From Deltaproteobacteria bacterium (GTDB taxonomy: Bacteria; DRYD01), in the NCBI GenBank assembly GCA_028276365.1, contig JAPYWL010000020.1:1-18035 (forward strand): DNA of 18,035 nt. Reading direction: 5' to 3'. Within the stretch, counting starts at the first letter, position 1; the number at the start of each line of letters is the position of its first letter. Made by a program: the position numbers and the translations under genes. The notes beneath the pieces were generated by a model, which saw nothing but the letters and a program-made list of their open reading frames with translations, had not been told where the DNA came from and did not search any database. Below are positions 1-8,333 of this stretch, piece after piece.

Positions 1-236
1 ATATTTACTTCATAAGCGAGATTTTCTATTATTTCTTTAGAAACTAATATATTCAATGTATTCTTTTCCTCTTTTATAAGATATTCATTGTTATTTATAG
101 GTTTATTAAATATAAATAAGATATAATCAGCTGCATATATAGGTAAAATCAAGAAAAATACAATAAAAGAAAAAGTAAATAAAATAACTATTCTAAATAT
201 ATTTGTTTTAAAATTGGTTTTAAAATATCCTAGTAT
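1..236 (-). CDS. Partial exported protein of unknown function, apparent ATA start
   Basis: An open frame runs from 236 off the left edge; only the first 78 codons are present. The N-terminus looks like a signal peptide: a short basic segment (LGYFKTNFKTNIFR), then a hydrophobic stretch of about 20 residues ending in PIYAAD, where signal peptidase could cut. A strong Shine-Dalgarno sequence (AGGGAGGG, complement of about 241-251) lies just upstream. However, no ATG, GTG or TTG follows it in frame. At the right distance the codon is ATA (236-234), and the frame is closed upstream by a TAA. The next usual start is a TTG inside the hydrophobic core with no ribosome binding site. I therefore call the start at ATA; a sequence error is the main alternative. 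I do not recognise a family in the visible part (continues ADYILFIFNKPINNNEYL). Confidence 0.6.
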   Translation of the reverse strand, partial: MLGYFKTNFKTNIFRIVILFTFSFIVFFLILPIYAADYILFIFNKPINNNEYLIKEEKNTLNILVSKEIIENLAYEVN

Positions 237-251
237 AACCTTTCCCTCCCT

Positions 252-574
252 TAATTTATTTAAATTTTACCAAAAATAATTCCTTCTTTAGTATTAAAAA
301 AATAAAATTTAATAATAATTTAAAAAATATTGATAAAAGTCAACAAAATTGAATATTTTTTATAAAAAAGCTCTTTTTTAAGTCTTTTTATTTATTTTTC
401 AAAAAATTATCTTTGCTATTCCTTGAAAATACTATGATTAAAAAACATATTTTTAAAAAATTATGAAAATTCTTAATATATTTATAAAAAAAATATTTTT
501 TAATGTAAATAAAAGGAAAAACTTATTAAAATATAAAATAATATATTGTAAGAAGTAAAAAGGAGGTGAACTAA
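252..574. other. Divergent AT-rich intergenic region
   Basis: This 323-bp stretch separates the leftward exported-protein gene from HU. It has no open frame with a ribosome binding site. The leftward promoter candidate is listed separately. For HU the best rightward match is TTGAAA (423-428), 17 bp, CATATT (446-451), which would leave a leader over 100 nt long; I hold this weakly. The HU ribosome binding site AAGGAGGTGA lies at the right end. Nothing else stands out beyond A and T runs. Confidence 0.4.
315..343 (-). promoter_or_regulatory. Candidate promoter for the leftward exported-protein gene
   Basis: On the minus strand TTGACT (343-338) is followed after 17 bp by AATTAT (320-315), four of six matches to TATAAT. 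It would give a leader of roughly 70 nt before the gene starting at 236. In DNA this AT-rich, such matches also arise by chance. Confidence 0.3.
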
Positions 575-2349: not shown

Positions 2350-3348
2350 ATGATTAATTTTAATAATACCATTAATTTTAATTCTATTAGTTTCAATAAC
2401 TTCTCGTATTTTAATAATGTATCATCTTACAATTTAAGCTTAAATTTTTTAGCTAATAATATAGATTTAGCTAATATTAATCCCAATTTAATTAACAATT
2501 TTAATAATATAAATAATTTACCTAATTTATTAAGTTCAAATATTGGTTTTTTAATAGGTTCAATTTTAGGAGGGATTTTAGGAGGAATTTTAGGACTTAA
2601 TATAGCTAACCAAAATAATTTCAATCCCTATCAAAATTTATCGAATAATTCAATAAATAATACCCTTTTATTAACCCTACTTTTATTATTAATTCAATTA
2701 CTAATAAATAACAATCGAGGTAATTTTAGCAATAATTTTGTTTTCCCTAATAATTTTGGTTTCCCTAATAACTTTGGTTTCCCCAATAATTTTGGTTTCC
2801 CTAATAATTTTGGTTTCCCCAATAATTTTAGTTTCCCTAATAATTTTGGTTTCCCCAATAATTTTAGTTTCCCTAATAATTTTGGTTTCCCCAATAATTT
2901 TAGTTTCCCTAATAATTTTGGATTAGGACCTGTTCCACCAAAAGGAAATGGTAGTGCTTCAGATCTTGTAAAAATAGCTTTATCTCAAGTAGGAAAACAA
3001 TACATATTTGGAGCAGAAGCTAATCCAAATGATCCAAATCCAAGAGCTTTCGATTGTTCAGAATTAGTAGAATGGGCTGTTAAAAGGGCAGGTGGAAACA
3101 TAGTAGATGGTGCAGCTAATCAATTTAATTATTGTAAGCAACATGGAACACTTATAAGTGTTCAACAAGCATTAAGAACCCCAGGAGCTTTATTATTTTA
3201 CAAAGATTTAGGGCATGTTATGATAAGTTTAGGGGATGGTAGAGTTGTAGAAGCTGGTAACAGTAGAGTGGGTGTAGTAGTTAGACCTGCAAGTGTTCAT
3301 AGTGATAAAATAGGTTATGCTGCTTTAGTTCCTGGACTTAAATACTAA
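2350..3348 (+). CDS. NlpC/P60 peptidase with Asn-rich FPNNF-repeat N-terminal region
   Basis: Probable cell-wall (murein) endopeptidase. The C-terminal 125 residues form an NlpC/P60 domain with catalytic Cys236 (FDCSELVEWA) and His289 (LGHVMISLG); the third catalytic position is not obvious (Glu301/Asn304 region). The first 190 residues are unusual. An Asn/Phe-rich stretch (1-64) is followed by a glycine-zipper-like hydrophobic segment (65-86, GSILGGILGGILG), a Leu-rich segment (105-119), and ten exact FPNNF[G/S] hexapeptides (132-191). A PVPPKGN linker leads into the enzyme. No classical signal peptide is visible, so export would rely on the internal hydrophobic segments or another route. 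The repeat region resembles an aggregation-prone or structural surface matrix (inference). The ribosome binding site AGGGAGGT supports the start. It appears monocistronic. Confidence 0.88.
   Translation: MINFNNTINFNSISFNNFSYFNNVSSYNLSLNFLANNIDLANINPNLINNFNNINNLPNLLSSNIGFLIGSILGGILGGILGLNIANQNNFNPYQNLSNNSINNTLLLTLLLLLIQLLINNNRGNFSNNFVFPNNFGFPNNFGFPNNFGFPNNFGFPNNFSFPNNFGFPNNFSFPNNFGFPNNFSFPNNFGLGPVPPKGNGSASDLVKIALSQVGKQYIFGAEANPNDPNPRAFDCSELVEWAVKRAGGNIVDGAANQFNYCKQHGTLISVQQALRTPGALLFYKDLGHVMISLGDGRVVEAGNSRVGVVVRPASVHSDKIGYAALVPGLKY
2743..2922 (+). repeat. Ten 18-bp tandem repeats encoding FPNNF[G/S]
   Basis: Ten in-frame units of TTCCCTAATAATTTTGGT with small variations. From the fourth unit the variants alternate in pairs (CCTAAT...GGT then CCCAAT...AGT), so units 4-9 form three 36-bp higher-order repeats. 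This suggests recent expansion by duplicating two-unit blocks. Copy number changes would stay in frame. Confidence 0.95.
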
Positions 3349-4041: not shown

Positions 4042-4944
4042 GTGAATATAAAAGTAGTTCAAAGTGGAAGCAATAGAGAATTTATTATATTAAAAAGAAA
4101 TGTTATACTTATAGATCCTGATTTTAATAATTTACAAAAATACATAAATATATTATCATTTTTAAAAAAAAATAATATAAATGTCCCTCAAATAAAAAAA
4201 ATATATAATAACTTTATAATTTTACAAAACTTAGGTTCAAAAAGTTTACTTAATATATACCTAAAGCTAAAAGAAAATAAAAAAAACTTAAATAAAATTA
4301 AATCTAAATATGAACTAACTTTAAAAGAAATATCAAAACTATATAAAATAGATATAAAAAAAAAGTATAAAGAGTTAAAAAAAATAGGAATTAGAGCTTT
4401 TAACTTAAAGGTTTTAAAATGGGAATGGCAATACTTTGTAGAAAACTACGCTATAAATTACAAAGGATTAAATAATTTTAAAATTCATAAATTATATCTT
4501 ATATCAGAAGAAATTATAAATACATGTTATAATATTATTAAAACATATCCCACCTTAATACACAGAGATTTACAATCTACAAATATTATTTTTTACAAAA
4601 ATAAACCTTATTTAATAGATACCCAAGGAATAATGGTTAGTAATTTTTTATATGATTTAGCTTCTTTATTGGAAGATCCTTATATTAAATTACCCTATAG
4701 ATTTAAATTAGAACTGCTAAATTACTTCTTTCAAATTAATAATCATTTTTTAATAGATTATTCTAGATATTATAAATATTTTAAAATTCAGAGATTAGTT
4801 CAAGTTTTAGGGGCTTTTAGTTATCTTAGCATCCATAAAAAAAAATCGTTCTTTATAAAACAATTAAATAGTATTTTTAACTTCCTGGATAATTTAAAAC
4901 AAGAGATGGATTCTTGGGGTTATCTATGGGAAGATTTGGAGTAG
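4042..4944 (+). CDS. AmgK-like phosphotransferase (aminoglycoside-phosphotransferase fold)
   Basis: Kinase of the choline/aminoglycoside phosphotransferase superfamily. The catalytic loop is LIHRDLQSTNI (His174-Arg175-Asp176, Asn181), the metal-binding segment LIDTQG (Asp193), followed by YDLASLLEDPYIKLP (204-218). That last block closely resembles cell-wall sugar kinases of the AmgK/COG3178 group (typical form YDLASLLxDxY), which phosphorylate MurNAc or GlcNAc at the anomeric position. The N-terminal lobe (1-65) is degenerate and very Lys/Asn/Ile-rich. At 300 residues it is close to the family length. The start is a GTG with no Shine-Dalgarno and no ATG nearby, so translation may be coupled to apt. 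The last 68 nt overlap the convergent phospholipase-D gene. No MurU-like nucleotidyltransferase is in the window, so the substrate is uncertain. Confidence 0.72.
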   Translation: MNIKVVQSGSNREFIILKRNVILIDPDFNNLQKYINILSFLKKNNINVPQIKKIYNNFIILQNLGSKSLLNIYLKLKENKKNLNKIKSKYELTLKEISKLYKIDIKKKYKELKKIGIRAFNLKVLKWEWQYFVENYAINYKGLNNFKIHKLYLISEEIINTCYNIIKTYPTLIHRDLQSTNIIFYKNKPYLIDTQGIMVSNFLYDLASLLEDPYIKLPYRFKLELLNYFFQINNHFLIDYSRYYKYFKIQRLVQVLGAFSYLSIHKKKSFFIKQLNSIFNFLDNLKQEMDSWGYLWEDLE

Positions 4945-6115
4945 GAGTTGGTAAACTTATTGGTTCTAAAGAAGTATTATTTTTCCAAACATTATTAAAG
5001 AAATCAGTTGCTTTTTCTAAAATATTTTTATCATTTGTTATTAATCCTACTTCATGGTTTACATCTAAACCTTTATGAGAAAAATTTCCACTACCTACTA
5101 TTACTTCATCATCTACTATCATTAACTTGGCATGGAGCATATTAAACTCGGAATCACTATAAGAATTAGGTTTAAACCACCTATAGCTTATTTTATTATC
5201 TTTTAAAATTTTAGCAGTTTGGTAATTAGGATTATCATAAGTATCACTTTTATTAGGATCTAAAATAACTTTAATATTAACTCCTCTATTTTTAGCTTCT
5301 ATTAACAACTTGATTAAATAAGGATCAGAAAGAACAAAAGCAGAGATAAGGATATTTTTTTTAGCATTAGAAACAGCTCGATAAACTGCTGCTCTGTAGC
5401 TATCTTTTGGAAAATTCTTATCAGCTATTAATACAGAAGCTTTTGAATTACCAACTTTCTCTGCTCTTGGAGTATATTCATAATCAGATCCCCCACTTCT
5501 TTTAAATAAAAACCAGAATTCTTTTTCTAAATCATCTATTACAGGGCCTTCCACATACAATCCACAATCTATATTTTTAAAAGCTCTATTACTCCAATTC
5601 AAGCTAGAAACTACAGCCTTCTTAGCATCTATAACTATATATTTCGCATGCATTAATTGATATTTTATATATTCCTTTAAATTTGAATCCCCTTTTATTT
5701 CATTTAAATCCCCTGAAGAATTTATATTTTTATTTTTAAGGTTTATATTTTCCAAGCTCTTATTTTCAAGGGGTACAAAAGGAAATTCAGCTACTTCTAC
5801 ATTGTTCTGCTTTAGATAATTTATGATATATTTCTTTAAATTCCATTCACTAGGAGAAAAATTAGAAGATAAAGGATCTACTACTACTCTCACTTTAACT
5901 CCCTCTTTAGCTTTTTTTACTAATAAATTAGCCAATAATGGATTATTAAATGAAAACTTAGCTATATGAATTGTATCTTTTGCCTGATTTATAAGTTCTA
6001 TTTCCTTTGCAGTTAAATCTTCATTTACTAAAAAATCTAATTTATTCCCATCTTTATAGTAATCTTTGATATTACCTCCACCATTTAAATTATTTAATTT
6101 TACAGAATTTATCAT
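4877..6115 (-). CDS. Phospholipase D family protein with two HKD motifs
   Basis: Two tandem PLD half-domains, each with a complete HxKx4D motif: LMHAKYIVID...SLNWSN in the first half and MLHAKLMIVD...GSGNFSHKG in the second. Such enzymes hydrolyse or transfer phosphodiesters through a phospho-histidine; members include phospholipases, cardiolipin synthases and nucleases such as Nuc. I place the start at 6115 because GAAAGGAG stands 7 nt before that ATG. An in-frame ATG at 6181 has no ribosome binding site. This gives 412 residues. No signal peptide or membrane helix is visible at either start, so a cytoplasmic nuclease or a non-classically exported enzyme are both possible. The C-terminus is a Pro-rich tail (LPTPTPNLPIDNP) encoded opposite the kinase gene end. 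It lies downstream of the pseudopilin operon on the same strand, with its own gap of 193 bp. Confidence 0.88.
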   Translation of the reverse strand: MINSVKLNNLNGGGNIKDYYKDGNKLDFLVNEDLTAKEIELINQAKDTIHIAKFSFNNPLLANLLVKKAKEGVKVRVVVDPLSSNFSPSEWNLKKYIINYLKQNNVEVAEFPFVPLENKSLENINLKNKNINSSGDLNEIKGDSNLKEYIKYQLMHAKYIVIDAKKAVVSSLNWSNRAFKNIDCGLYVEGPVIDDLEKEFWFLFKRSGGSDYEYTPRAEKVGNSKASVLIADKNFPKDSYRAAVYRAVSNAKKNILISAFVLSDPYLIKLLIEAKNRGVNIKVILDPNKSDTYDNPNYQTAKILKDNKISYRWFKPNSYSDSEFNMLHAKLMIVDDEVIVGSGNFSHKGLDVNHEVGLITNDKNILEKATDFFNNVWKNNTSLEPISLPTPTPNLPIDNPKNPSLVLNYPGS

Positions 6116-6206
6116 AATTTTTCTCCTTTCTATGTTATTTACTATCTTTAATTCTAAATTTAAAATCCCATTATTTACCAAAATTTTTTTAATAAAATGT
6201 TAAAGA

Positions 6207-6265: not shown

Positions 6266-6365
6266 TTTAGATTGACAACAAAAACTTCAGAAGTTAAATT
6301 ATAATTAATTATTGCTTTAGATTGGCAGCAAAAACTTCAGAAGTTAGATTATAATTAATTATTGC
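6266..6365. repeat. 50-bp tandem duplication at the 3' end of the Hint pseudopilin gene
   Basis: 6266-6315 and 6316-6365 are adjacent copies that match at 47 of 50 positions. All three differences are A in the first copy and G in the second (6275/6325, 6278/6328, 6297/6347). The second copy is coding sequence. Most of the first lies beyond the stop codon at 6309-6311. Confidence 0.95.
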
Positions 6366-7676
6366 TAAAAATAATAAAGAACCTCCCGTAAATAAAGGAG
6401 CTAACACTTTAAAAACATTTATATGACTATATCCTGAATGAGCTAAGATAAACGTATTACCATCTACTGATACTAAAAATGTATTTATTTCCTCTTTTAA
6501 TTCTAATGTCATTATTTTATCTACTATTATTTCTTTTCTTATCTCTTTTATTTCTTCCCAGTTATATTTTCCCTCTTTATAAACTAATACCTTATCTCCT
6601 ATGTTTAATTTTCCTGCTTTCTTATCATTATTATTCTCATCTATTATTAGCGGATGATTTGGCGTTAATCTTATTTTTCCACTTTCTGTTATTAATTCCA
6701 TTATTTCCCATTCTTGTTTATCGTGTAAATGTATCTTCTCTACTTCTATTTCTTTTAGTTTATAATTTTCTACTGGATCTATTGTTAAAACAATATCCCC
6801 TATCTTAACATCTGACATCTTCTTTAAAATATATTTATCTTGTTCTTTTGTTAAAATCAAACATGATAACTCAAAACATCCCCCCCCTCCACCACCGCCA
6901 GTAGTAGTAGTAGTTGTTGTTGTTGTCGTAGTAGTCGTAGTAGTGGTAGTGGTAGTATTAGTGGTAGTCCAAGTAGTGGTAGTAGTAGTGGTAGTAGTAG
7001 TTGTAGTCGTAGTAGTCATATTAGTGGTAGTATCATTAATAGTAGTGGTAGTATCAGTAGTAATAGTACTACTCATATTCCCAATATTATTATCATTCAT
7101 AGTAGTGGTAGTAGCAGTCATATTAGGATAAGCAACAGTGAAAGTCCCTACATCTACTGACGGTATATTTGGTTGTATTACCCCTATTTTAAACGAATTA
7201 GCTGTTAAATATATCTCTATTCTATTTATTCTTCTTAGATTCTTATGCTCATATATTAGCTCCACTTCTACTTTATATAGATTCGTATTATTTATCCTTA
7301 CTGGTTGGCTTATTCTTATTTCCCTTATCTTATTGTATCTATTATACCCTAATGTATTTACTAAATTAAATATCTCAGTAGGTGTATTAACATTCATCTT
7401 TAAATCAAATTGCCCTTCTCTACCAGCTATTGGTTCTAAATAAAAATATTTTCCACTATTTCTTGTTAATTCCATCTGTATGAAAACTGAAGCATTTGAT
7501 ATATCTATTAACTTCTGATTTATATCACTAAAACTTGTTGATCCCCAATATACTATGCTATATAATGCCATTATTAATATTAACGCTATTGTAAATGATA
7601 TTACTACCTCTACTATTGTCATTCCTTTATAACTTTTTCTTATTTCATTATTTAAAAAATCTTCTTTTTTCAACAT
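6309..7676 (-). CDS. Prepilin-type protein with poly-Thr stalk and Hint autoprocessing domain
   Basis: A 455-residue composite protein. Residues 14-40 are a type IV prepilin signal: KSYKG then MTIVEVVISF and a hydrophobic helix, with cleavage expected after Gly18 and Glu at mature position 5. Residues 45-185 form a PilW/GspJ-like pseudopilin body. A Thr/Asn-rich stretch (186-220) leads into T15-W-T3-N-T19 (221-259) and seven Gly (260-266). Cys267-Phe begins a Hint (Hedgehog/intein) domain of about 148 residues. It has MSDVKIGDIVL, the block-B motif TPNHPL (Thr338, His341) and the C-terminal FLVSVDGNTFILAHS. The conserved penultimate His is His413, but the usual Asn is Ser414. There is no homing-endonuclease insert. 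A hydrophobic segment (about 419-442) ends the protein. The start has GGGGGATGAG. It is the last of three pseudopilin genes, 15 nt after the previous one. The self-cleavage chemistry is inferred from the motifs. Confidence 0.85.
   Translation of the reverse strand: MLKKEDFLNNEIRKSYKGMTIVEVVISFTIALILIMALYSIVYWGSTSFSDINQKLIDISNASVFIQMELTRNSGKYFYLEPIAGREGQFDLKMNVNTPTEIFNLVNTLGYNRYNKIREIRISQPVRINNTNLYKVEVELIYEHKNLRRINRIEIYLTANSFKIGVIQPNIPSVDVGTFTVAYPNMTATTTTMNDNNIGNMSSTITTDTTTTINDTTTNMTTTTTTTTTTTTTTTWTTTNTTTTTTTTTTTTTTTTTTTGGGGGGGCFELSCLILTKEQDKYILKKMSDVKIGDIVLTIDPVENYKLKEIEVEKIHLHDKQEWEIMELITESGKIRLTPNHPLIIDENNNDKKAGKLNIGDKVLVYKEGKYNWEEIKEIRKEIIVDKIMTLELKEEINTFLVSVDGNTFILAHSGYSHINVFKVLAPLFTGGSLLFLAIINYNLTSEVFAANLKQ
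6880..6887 (-). repeat. G8 homopolymer in the Gly run: possible slippage switch
   Basis: Eight G in a row on the coding (minus) strand, within GGA-GGG-GGG-GGA-TGT, just before Cys267 of the Hint domain. Gain of one G puts TGA three codons further on (ATG-TTT-TGA). Loss of one gives a TGA after about eight codons. Either slip removes the Hint domain and the C-terminal membrane segment. Confidence 0.8.
6900..7016 (-). repeat. Trinucleotide (ACT/ACC/ACA/ACG) tract encoding poly-Thr
   Basis: Thirty-nine consecutive codons encode 37 Thr plus one Trp and one Asn. Most codons are ACT, with ACC, ACA and ACG interspersed. A looser Thr/Asn-rich stretch continues to about 7130. Triplet gains and losses would change the stalk length without changing the frame. 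Confidence 0.9.
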
Positions 7677-7691
7677 CCACTCATCCCCCTA

Positions 7692-8333
7692 TTATTTACT
7701 ATTAATAGGGACATCCAAGTAATATATTATCCTACTTCTTTGGTTTCTAAATAAAAAATCAGTTTTAATGCTTACTCTTACTAAATTAACTACCTTATTT
7801 TCAAAGTATAATTCGCTATTTATAACCTGCTCTACTATTCCTAAATTAATATCTCTTTCAATTCTTGTATCTTGTCCATCAATAAACCCATTGTTATTTA
7901 TATCATCATATATTATTTTTTTTACTTTAAATAAATAATCTTTAGAAATTCCTCTATCCTTTATTAAAATTCTGTTTATTATTAAATAAATAAAATTATT
8001 TTTAACTGTTATTGGATTTTGATTAATAATATTAGTAGTAAATCCTATGGTATTAGTAGATAGTTTAAATATAGAATTTGTAGTAGAATTAAAATTTGAG
8101 TTTCTAATTATCTCATTAGCTAATTTATTTAAAATATTTTTAGAAGTAGAAGATACATAGTACTTATAAGAAAGTTTTCTCATTATAAATGTCATCTTAC
8201 TTATTGATAGTGCTAAAATTATCATTATACCTAACGCTATTCCAATAGCTATTAAAAGCTCAGCTAATGTAAAACCTTTATTACTAACCTTTTTTAATAA
8301 CTTATTCAAAAATTCTCTTTTATTTCTTACCAT
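7692..8333 (-). CDS. Type IV pilin-like minor pseudopilin (PilW/GspJ-like)
   Basis: A 213-residue protein with a canonical prepilin signal: basic leader (MVRNKREFLNKLLKKVSNK), Gly20, then FTLAELLIAIGIALGIMIILALSI. The prepilin peptidase would cut after Gly20, leaving N-methylated Phe and Glu at mature position 5. The rest is a small globular domain with acidic and Asn-rich loops, including a calcium-loop-like stretch (DDINNNGFIDGQDTR) that may bind Ca2+. This Ca-binding type is known in other pseudopilins and is inferred here. Size and position between a large PilX/GspK-like gene and a second pseudopilin suggest a minor tip subunit. The ribosome binding site is moderate (AAGGGAAG). No pilus ATPase, platform protein or prepilin peptidase lies in the window; they must be encoded elsewhere. 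Confidence 0.85.
   Translation of the reverse strand: MVRNKREFLNKLLKKVSNKGFTLAELLIAIGIALGIMIILALSISKMTFIMRKLSYKYYVSSTSKNILNKLANEIIRNSNFNSTTNSIFKLSTNTIGFTTNIINQNPITVKNNFIYLIINRILIKDRGISKDYLFKVKKIIYDDINNNGFIDGQDTRIERDINLGIVEQVINSELYFENKVVNLVRVSIKTDFLFRNQRSRIIYYLDVPINSK

Follow-up and report, generated by a model that had tools for sequence, protein, structure and literature searches.

The window, that is, the whole stretch of DNA that was analysed (18,035 nucleotides), is the entire contig of a 1.59 Mb draft genome, and it was compared with five further genomes of the same family (six in all). On its minus strand lies a frame of 455 residues, read from 7676 to 6309, in which a leader, a pilin body, a stalk, seven glycines, a Hint domain and a hydrophobic tail follow one another (Table 1). 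The leader is KSYKG/MTIVE (the slash marks the cut), with Gly18 before the cut and Glu at +5. The stalk is T15-W-T3-N-T19, then G7, then Cys267-Phe268, and the Hint motifs are TPNHPL (Thr338/His341) and FILAHS (His413/Ser414). The features described in an earlier note on this DNA, including the hydrophobic tail, were all found again with the same residue numbers.

Table 1. Features of the pilin-Hint locus and its surroundings in the window.
Feature	Position	Strand	Basis or remarks
NlpC/P60 protein	2350..3348		about ten FPNNFG/FPNNFS repeats ahead of the peptidase domain
Two-domain phospholipase D-like protein	4877..6181		adjoins the pilin-Hint gene; place kept in genome G001, not in G002
50-base tandem duplication (94% identical) of the pilin-Hint gene 3' end	6266..6365		second copy directly beyond the pilin-Hint stop codon
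Pilin-stalk-Hint-membrane-helix protein, 455 aa	6309..7676	minus	open frame; Pfam N_methyl and Hint above cut-off; orthologues
C-terminal tail with membrane helix (residues 417-455)	6312..6428	minus	model (low confidence there), hydropathy
Hint core Cys267-Tyr416 = Hint residues 1-150 (Cys1, Thr72, His75, Ser148)	6429..6878	minus	Pfam, alignment, model
Thr-rich stalk ending T19-G7 (residues 188-266)	6879..7115	minus	sequence and codons
Prepilin leader, site G18/M19, Glu +5, and pilin body (residues 1-187)	7116..7676	minus	Pfam N_methyl; family alignment; model
Small minor pilin, 213 aa, NKGFTLAE	7692..8333	minus	N_methyl 17.6 bits, below cut-off; G001 orthologue in the same place
Large pilin-like protein, 529 aa	8381..9970	minus	adjoins the pilin-Hint gene in G001 and G002

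In the Pfam analysis of the window protein, PF01079 (Hint) was found with E=6.3e-9 and 36.2 bits against a cut-off of 29.7, in agreement with the Hint domain claimed in that note, and N_methyl with 21.4 bits against a cut-off of 21.2; the score of the intein family PF14890 was under its cut-off. PF01079 alone cannot separate Hedgehog from inteins because it also gives 37 bits on an intein-like insert. All four Thr codons are used in the stalk and all four Gly codons in the Gly run, which indicates that these runs are held as protein and are no plain DNA microsatellite.

The pilin part was aligned in an 11-member family, and its model shows a beta sheet and, at the N-terminus, a long helix (21-72). 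Its structural matches include two pseudopilin chains, 2ret_G with Z 6.7 over 79 residues and 9a1f_R with Z 5.2 over 109 residues, along with unrelated rows of equal Z. The pilin-Hint gene is the last of three pilin genes, a set conserved in G001 and partly in G002. The small minor pilin gene upstream probably belongs to the same operon, and the large protein could be GspK-like, considering its size and the absence of Glu at +5. Moreover, each of the six genomes encodes one prepilin peptidase and one or two secretins. A promoter scan gave a result at chance level.

Fold and active site of the Hint domain

The AlphaFold2 model, made from a shallow alignment, shows pLDDT values mostly above 90 for Hint residues 1-150 and a tail helix at 155-175 with low confidence (pLDDT <50). 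When this model was compared by VIA-align, the first match was Hedgehog D46H (Z 20.9, 1.7 Å, 137 residues), next came wild-type Hedgehog (Z 20.6, 1.8 Å), and inteins were found at Z 20.2 and lower; the top Hedgehog matches include the D303H form. Foldseek placed the bacterial intein-like domain 2lwy first and Hedgehog fourth. Judging from the predicted structure, with Z values of about 20 to both Hedgehog and inteins, the Hint fold is sure and the choice between the Hedgehog and intein subfamilies is a tie.

Core identity among the six readable Hint copies is 31-79% (31-40% between genera), and Cys1, Phe2, Glu3, His50, His52, Arg70, Thr72, Asn74, His75, Pro76 and Gly149 are invariant. In 6/6 copies, Ser or Cys (Cys in two) occupies the position of the intein terminal Asn, which aligns with the Asn of the 'AHN' and 'VHN' bacterial Hint proteins; the endings are His-Ser, His-Cys or Asn-Cys, followed in all six by Gly149. 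The intein Asp F:4 is also absent; the residue aligned with it is Thr, Ala or Ser. Profile, structure and the comparison of the six copies support the Hint fold, the catalytic Cys, Thr and His, the missing C-terminal Asn and the membrane tail. Since this Asn is absent in all six copies, Asn cyclisation and splicing are not expected. Splicing appears unlikely from these sequences, and an N-terminal thioester chemistry, leading to cleavage or transfer, appears likely; the preference of the earlier note for N-terminal cleavage or ligation over splicing would follow from the missing Asn (6/6) and the missing F:4 Asp. The published roles of the Hint residues (PMC4031507, PMC9163320) fit N-terminal thioester chemistry without splicing. 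An active splicing intein was also considered and rejected, as neither a terminal Asn nor a C-extein is present in the six copies.

Relatives, junction and membrane tail

The same architecture was looked for in related genomes and is present in five intact genes and two broken ones, across four genomes and two genera. The carriers are hot-spring bacteria related to Candidatus Calescibacterium, and the nearest relatives of the Hint domain come from hot-spring draft genomes, one of them labelled with this name. The copy in G001 C15 has the same layout with 62% identity over 438 aligned residues, and the gene order agrees over most of the window; the pilin-stalk-Hint layout also occurs in G002 C6 and G002 C9. 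In G001 C5 (L017), a Hint domain 76% identical over the core is attached to a different, unrelated pilin class, and the domain is therefore found on two pilin classes. Concerning the broken copies, the frame of the one in G003 C61 is interrupted within a 12-base linker repeat, possibly through an error of assembly, and the one in G002 C18 has lost the start of the Hint. Compared with the nearest orthologue (G001 C15), the Hint core gives a dN of 0.15 and a dS of 0.64, the pilin 0.18 and 0.76, and dN/dS is about 0.24 in both cases; the Hint and the pilin are under purifying selection. These values, with the orthologues of the same layout, rule out a frame artefact or chance.

Pilins of the same class without Hint are encoded in the same genomes (L002, L015, L018). 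Furthermore, L011 (G004 C96, 754-1407) carries the same-class pilin and a Thr stalk ending in GGGSGGGGGGG, followed by YIKPPQVM and no Hint. It seems that the pilin C-terminus is a site where modules get swapped. L023 (G001 C11, 7155-7790), a copy of the same pilin that is damaged and has an internal deletion, bears the tail CGYVLPGGYTCARPKGHKGPHAF instead of a Hint; this end is rich in Cys and His and resembles a metal-binding one.

When a profile built from the six readable Hint copies was run against 386 genomes, the matches were confined to this family, apart from two weak ones in one high-GC genome outside it. L029 and L012 (G034 C33) are neighbouring Hint matches in a high-GC genome, and L012, like the myxobacterial group of PMC2362128, is secreted and has Cys residues ahead of its Hint. 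With PF01079, no pilin-Hint fusion was found in other phyla among the 386 genomes; of the five other matches, two looked like inteins, one like an RHS-type protein and one like an intein-like protein with the ending AHN, and the fifth was an unplaceable frame; no pilin was seen in any of them. A search for further copies by the pattern GG-Cys-Phe-Glu gave one extra match, by chance within another gene. A viral origin was not supported either, with no relative among viral contigs or plasmids and weak PHROGs matches.

Regarding the linker, the stalk is replaced in relatives by TTTA, TTTQQ or GTPSDP repeats, and its end is Gly-rich in 5/6. The junction is Gly-Cys-Phe in five of the six copies, the window included, and Lys-Cys-Phe in L017. 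The earlier note had given the Gly run a role in leaving the thioester unhindered. The run is kept in 5/6 copies while the rest of the linker turns over, which speaks for a role; nevertheless, the intact L017 has Lys-Cys at the junction, so the run is not essential. In the nematode Hog protein XC Thog, about 70 Thr/Ser residues lie ahead of the Hog domain (PMC2362128), a striking and probably convergent parallel to the Thr stalk.

The C-terminal membrane tail proposed from the window sequence turned out to be general, as a hydrophobic helix follows the Hint in 6/6 readable copies. In the window, the stretch has 19 residues with a mean hydropathy of 1.92, and the six tails all have such a 19-residue stretch (mean hydropathy 1.87-2.09). 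A hydrophobic C-terminus of this kind is present in 15 of the 128 proteins of these loci, namely the six Hint proteins and nine of the other 122, these nine being mostly evident membrane proteins. The identity among the tails is 8-37%. A property that is kept with a sequence that is free suggests that the tail is an anchor and no ligand site. Its orientation would follow from the pilin being outside. A signal-peptidase-like site (FA/A) in some tails was considered and not supported.

Possible function of the pilin-Hint protein

The pilin, the stalk, the Hint with its catalytic residues and the second hydrophobic helix are kept together by selection. According to the reading that we hold slightly more probable than its negation, the protein would serve a type IV pilus or a type II secretion apparatus as a minor pilin and would carry its own single-use processing enzyme, working by cleavage and preferably for release. 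The prepilin peptidase would remove the leader, and the pilin would then have two anchors in the inner membrane, its own N-terminal helix and, via the Hint, the C-terminal membrane helix. Cys267 would attack the carbonyl of Gly266 (N-S acyl shift) and form a thioester, which could be broken by water or another nucleophile, so that the Hint and its helix stay in the membrane and the freed pilin-stalk can enter the pilus. Release by hydrolysis is somewhat more likely than ligation, in which an amine, alcohol or lipid headgroup of the surface would be the partner, and release is plausible because a pilin could hardly enter a pilus as long as it has a second membrane helix. Two broken copies, one copy without Gly at -1 and the unsure tail model are points against cleavage. 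In addition, L002, L015 and L018 have no Hint, and such processing is therefore not needed for these pilins in general.

The thioester could also be attacked, as in Hedgehog, by a specific small or surface molecule (a lipid headgroup, polyamine, peptidoglycan or protein amine). This molecule would then be joined to the stalk at its Gly end, giving anchoring or decoration of the pilin without sortase. We regard this ligation as a tentative possibility of rather low probability. The top structural matches with Hedgehog, its D303H form included, and the Gly-Cys-Phe junction speak for it, and no sortase was found in any of the six genomes (0/6; 71-90% complete). The fly Hedgehog reference sequence used in the alignments is an exact match to the Protein Data Bank. 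In hhalign, Cys1 and TxxH were aligned with Hedgehog and the invariant His52 was at D303, the general-base place, and in MAFFT the invariant His50 was there, a disagreement that weakens the argument; Asp53, next to His52, is D/D/D/D/E/T in the six copies. Hedgehog D303H keeps activity and accepts a wider range of acceptors (PMC9163320). Structural ends matching 1..150 to 258..402 place Ser148 at about Hedgehog C400, although MAFFT aligns that strand differently. Hog motif J matches intein motif G, and some algal Hog domains have Ser in place of the motif J Cys (PMC2362128). These likenesses at D303 and C400 point to similar working, not to Hedgehog membership, and inteins lie within about 1 Z unit of Hedgehog. 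Besides, no sterol recognition region was found in the tail; one hydrophobic helix makes it up, and its sequence is not conserved, unlike a region binding a single ligand. Squalene-hopene cyclase was not found in the six genomes (71-90% complete), which makes an acceptor of the sterol or hopanoid type unlikely; at this completeness a single absence, of this enzyme as of sortase, is weak, and six of six is fair evidence. The bolder idea of a bacterial Hedgehog counterpart, moving the Gly-ended stalk from the membrane anchor to a specific non-sterol acceptor as a sortase-free anchoring or modification of the pilus tip, seems doubtful to us.

It is improbable that the Hint is no longer catalytic and gives the pilin no more than a folded spacer and a membrane anchor. 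The splicing residues are lost and L017 has no Gly at its junction, which speaks for this reading; however, Cys1, Thr and His are invariant in six copies in spite of the low core identity between genera, an anchor would not need active-site residues, and the doubly anchored pilin would again hardly fit into a pilus. A decaying intein or bacterial intein-like selfish domain trapped in pilin genes is very improbable. The existence of broken copies and the first place of 2lwy in Foldseek would agree with it, but the domain is under purifying selection, already visible at the active-site residues of six copies, has a C-terminal place without homologous C-extein and without endonuclease, and lacks Asn in every copy.

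Several known systems share parts of this layout. With the type IV minor pilins and type II pseudopilins (GspI/J/K, PilV/W/X), the window protein has in common the leader with Gly at -1 and Glu at +5, the long hydrophobic N-terminal helix with the sheet, and a minor-pilin operon with a large K-like member, in a genome with peptidase and secretin; it differs by adding the C-terminal stalk, the Hint and the second membrane helix. The Hedgehog (Hog) proteins share the exported N-terminal part, Gly-Cys-Phe, the Hint fold (Z 20.6-20.9, 137 residues), Cys/TxxH, the absence of a terminal Asn and a hydrophobic C-terminal region. Here, in contrast, the protein is bacterial, the processed part is a pilin, D303 is not clearly kept, the tail is one helix without conserved motifs and no sterol/hopanoid route was found. 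BIL domains of types A and B also present a Hint in a bacterial surface protein, with Cys1 and TxxH. Type A ends in His-Asn, whereas the domain described here ends in Ser/Cys and has a fixed C-terminal place ahead of a membrane helix; type B, which lacks block G and shows uncoupled splice-site cleavage (PMC4031507), would be compatible with the pilin-Hint protein by its sequence. Finally, PT-HINT (PF07591) is a Hint in secreted proteins with possible release of a part, but there the Hint precedes a toxin and here only a membrane helix follows it; the PF07591 match is weak (3/6 members, best E 7e-4).

No description of a natural pilin-Hint fusion was found in the open-access literature on pilins with Hint, intein or intein-like domains, in line with the earlier note, which knew of none. 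Pilins and Hint domains are both known, and their joined layout with a membrane tail appears to be new. It occurs in thermophiles without detectable sortase. With its exported part, Gly-Cys-Phe junction, Hint and hydrophobic tail, it is a natural bacterial parallel to Hedgehog and is testable in vitro. An N-cleaving Hint without splicing residues, probably heat-stable, would also be of use in protein chemistry. If the domain is active, these bacteria would have a self-contained way of timing when a pilin leaves the membrane, or of fixing it to another molecule.
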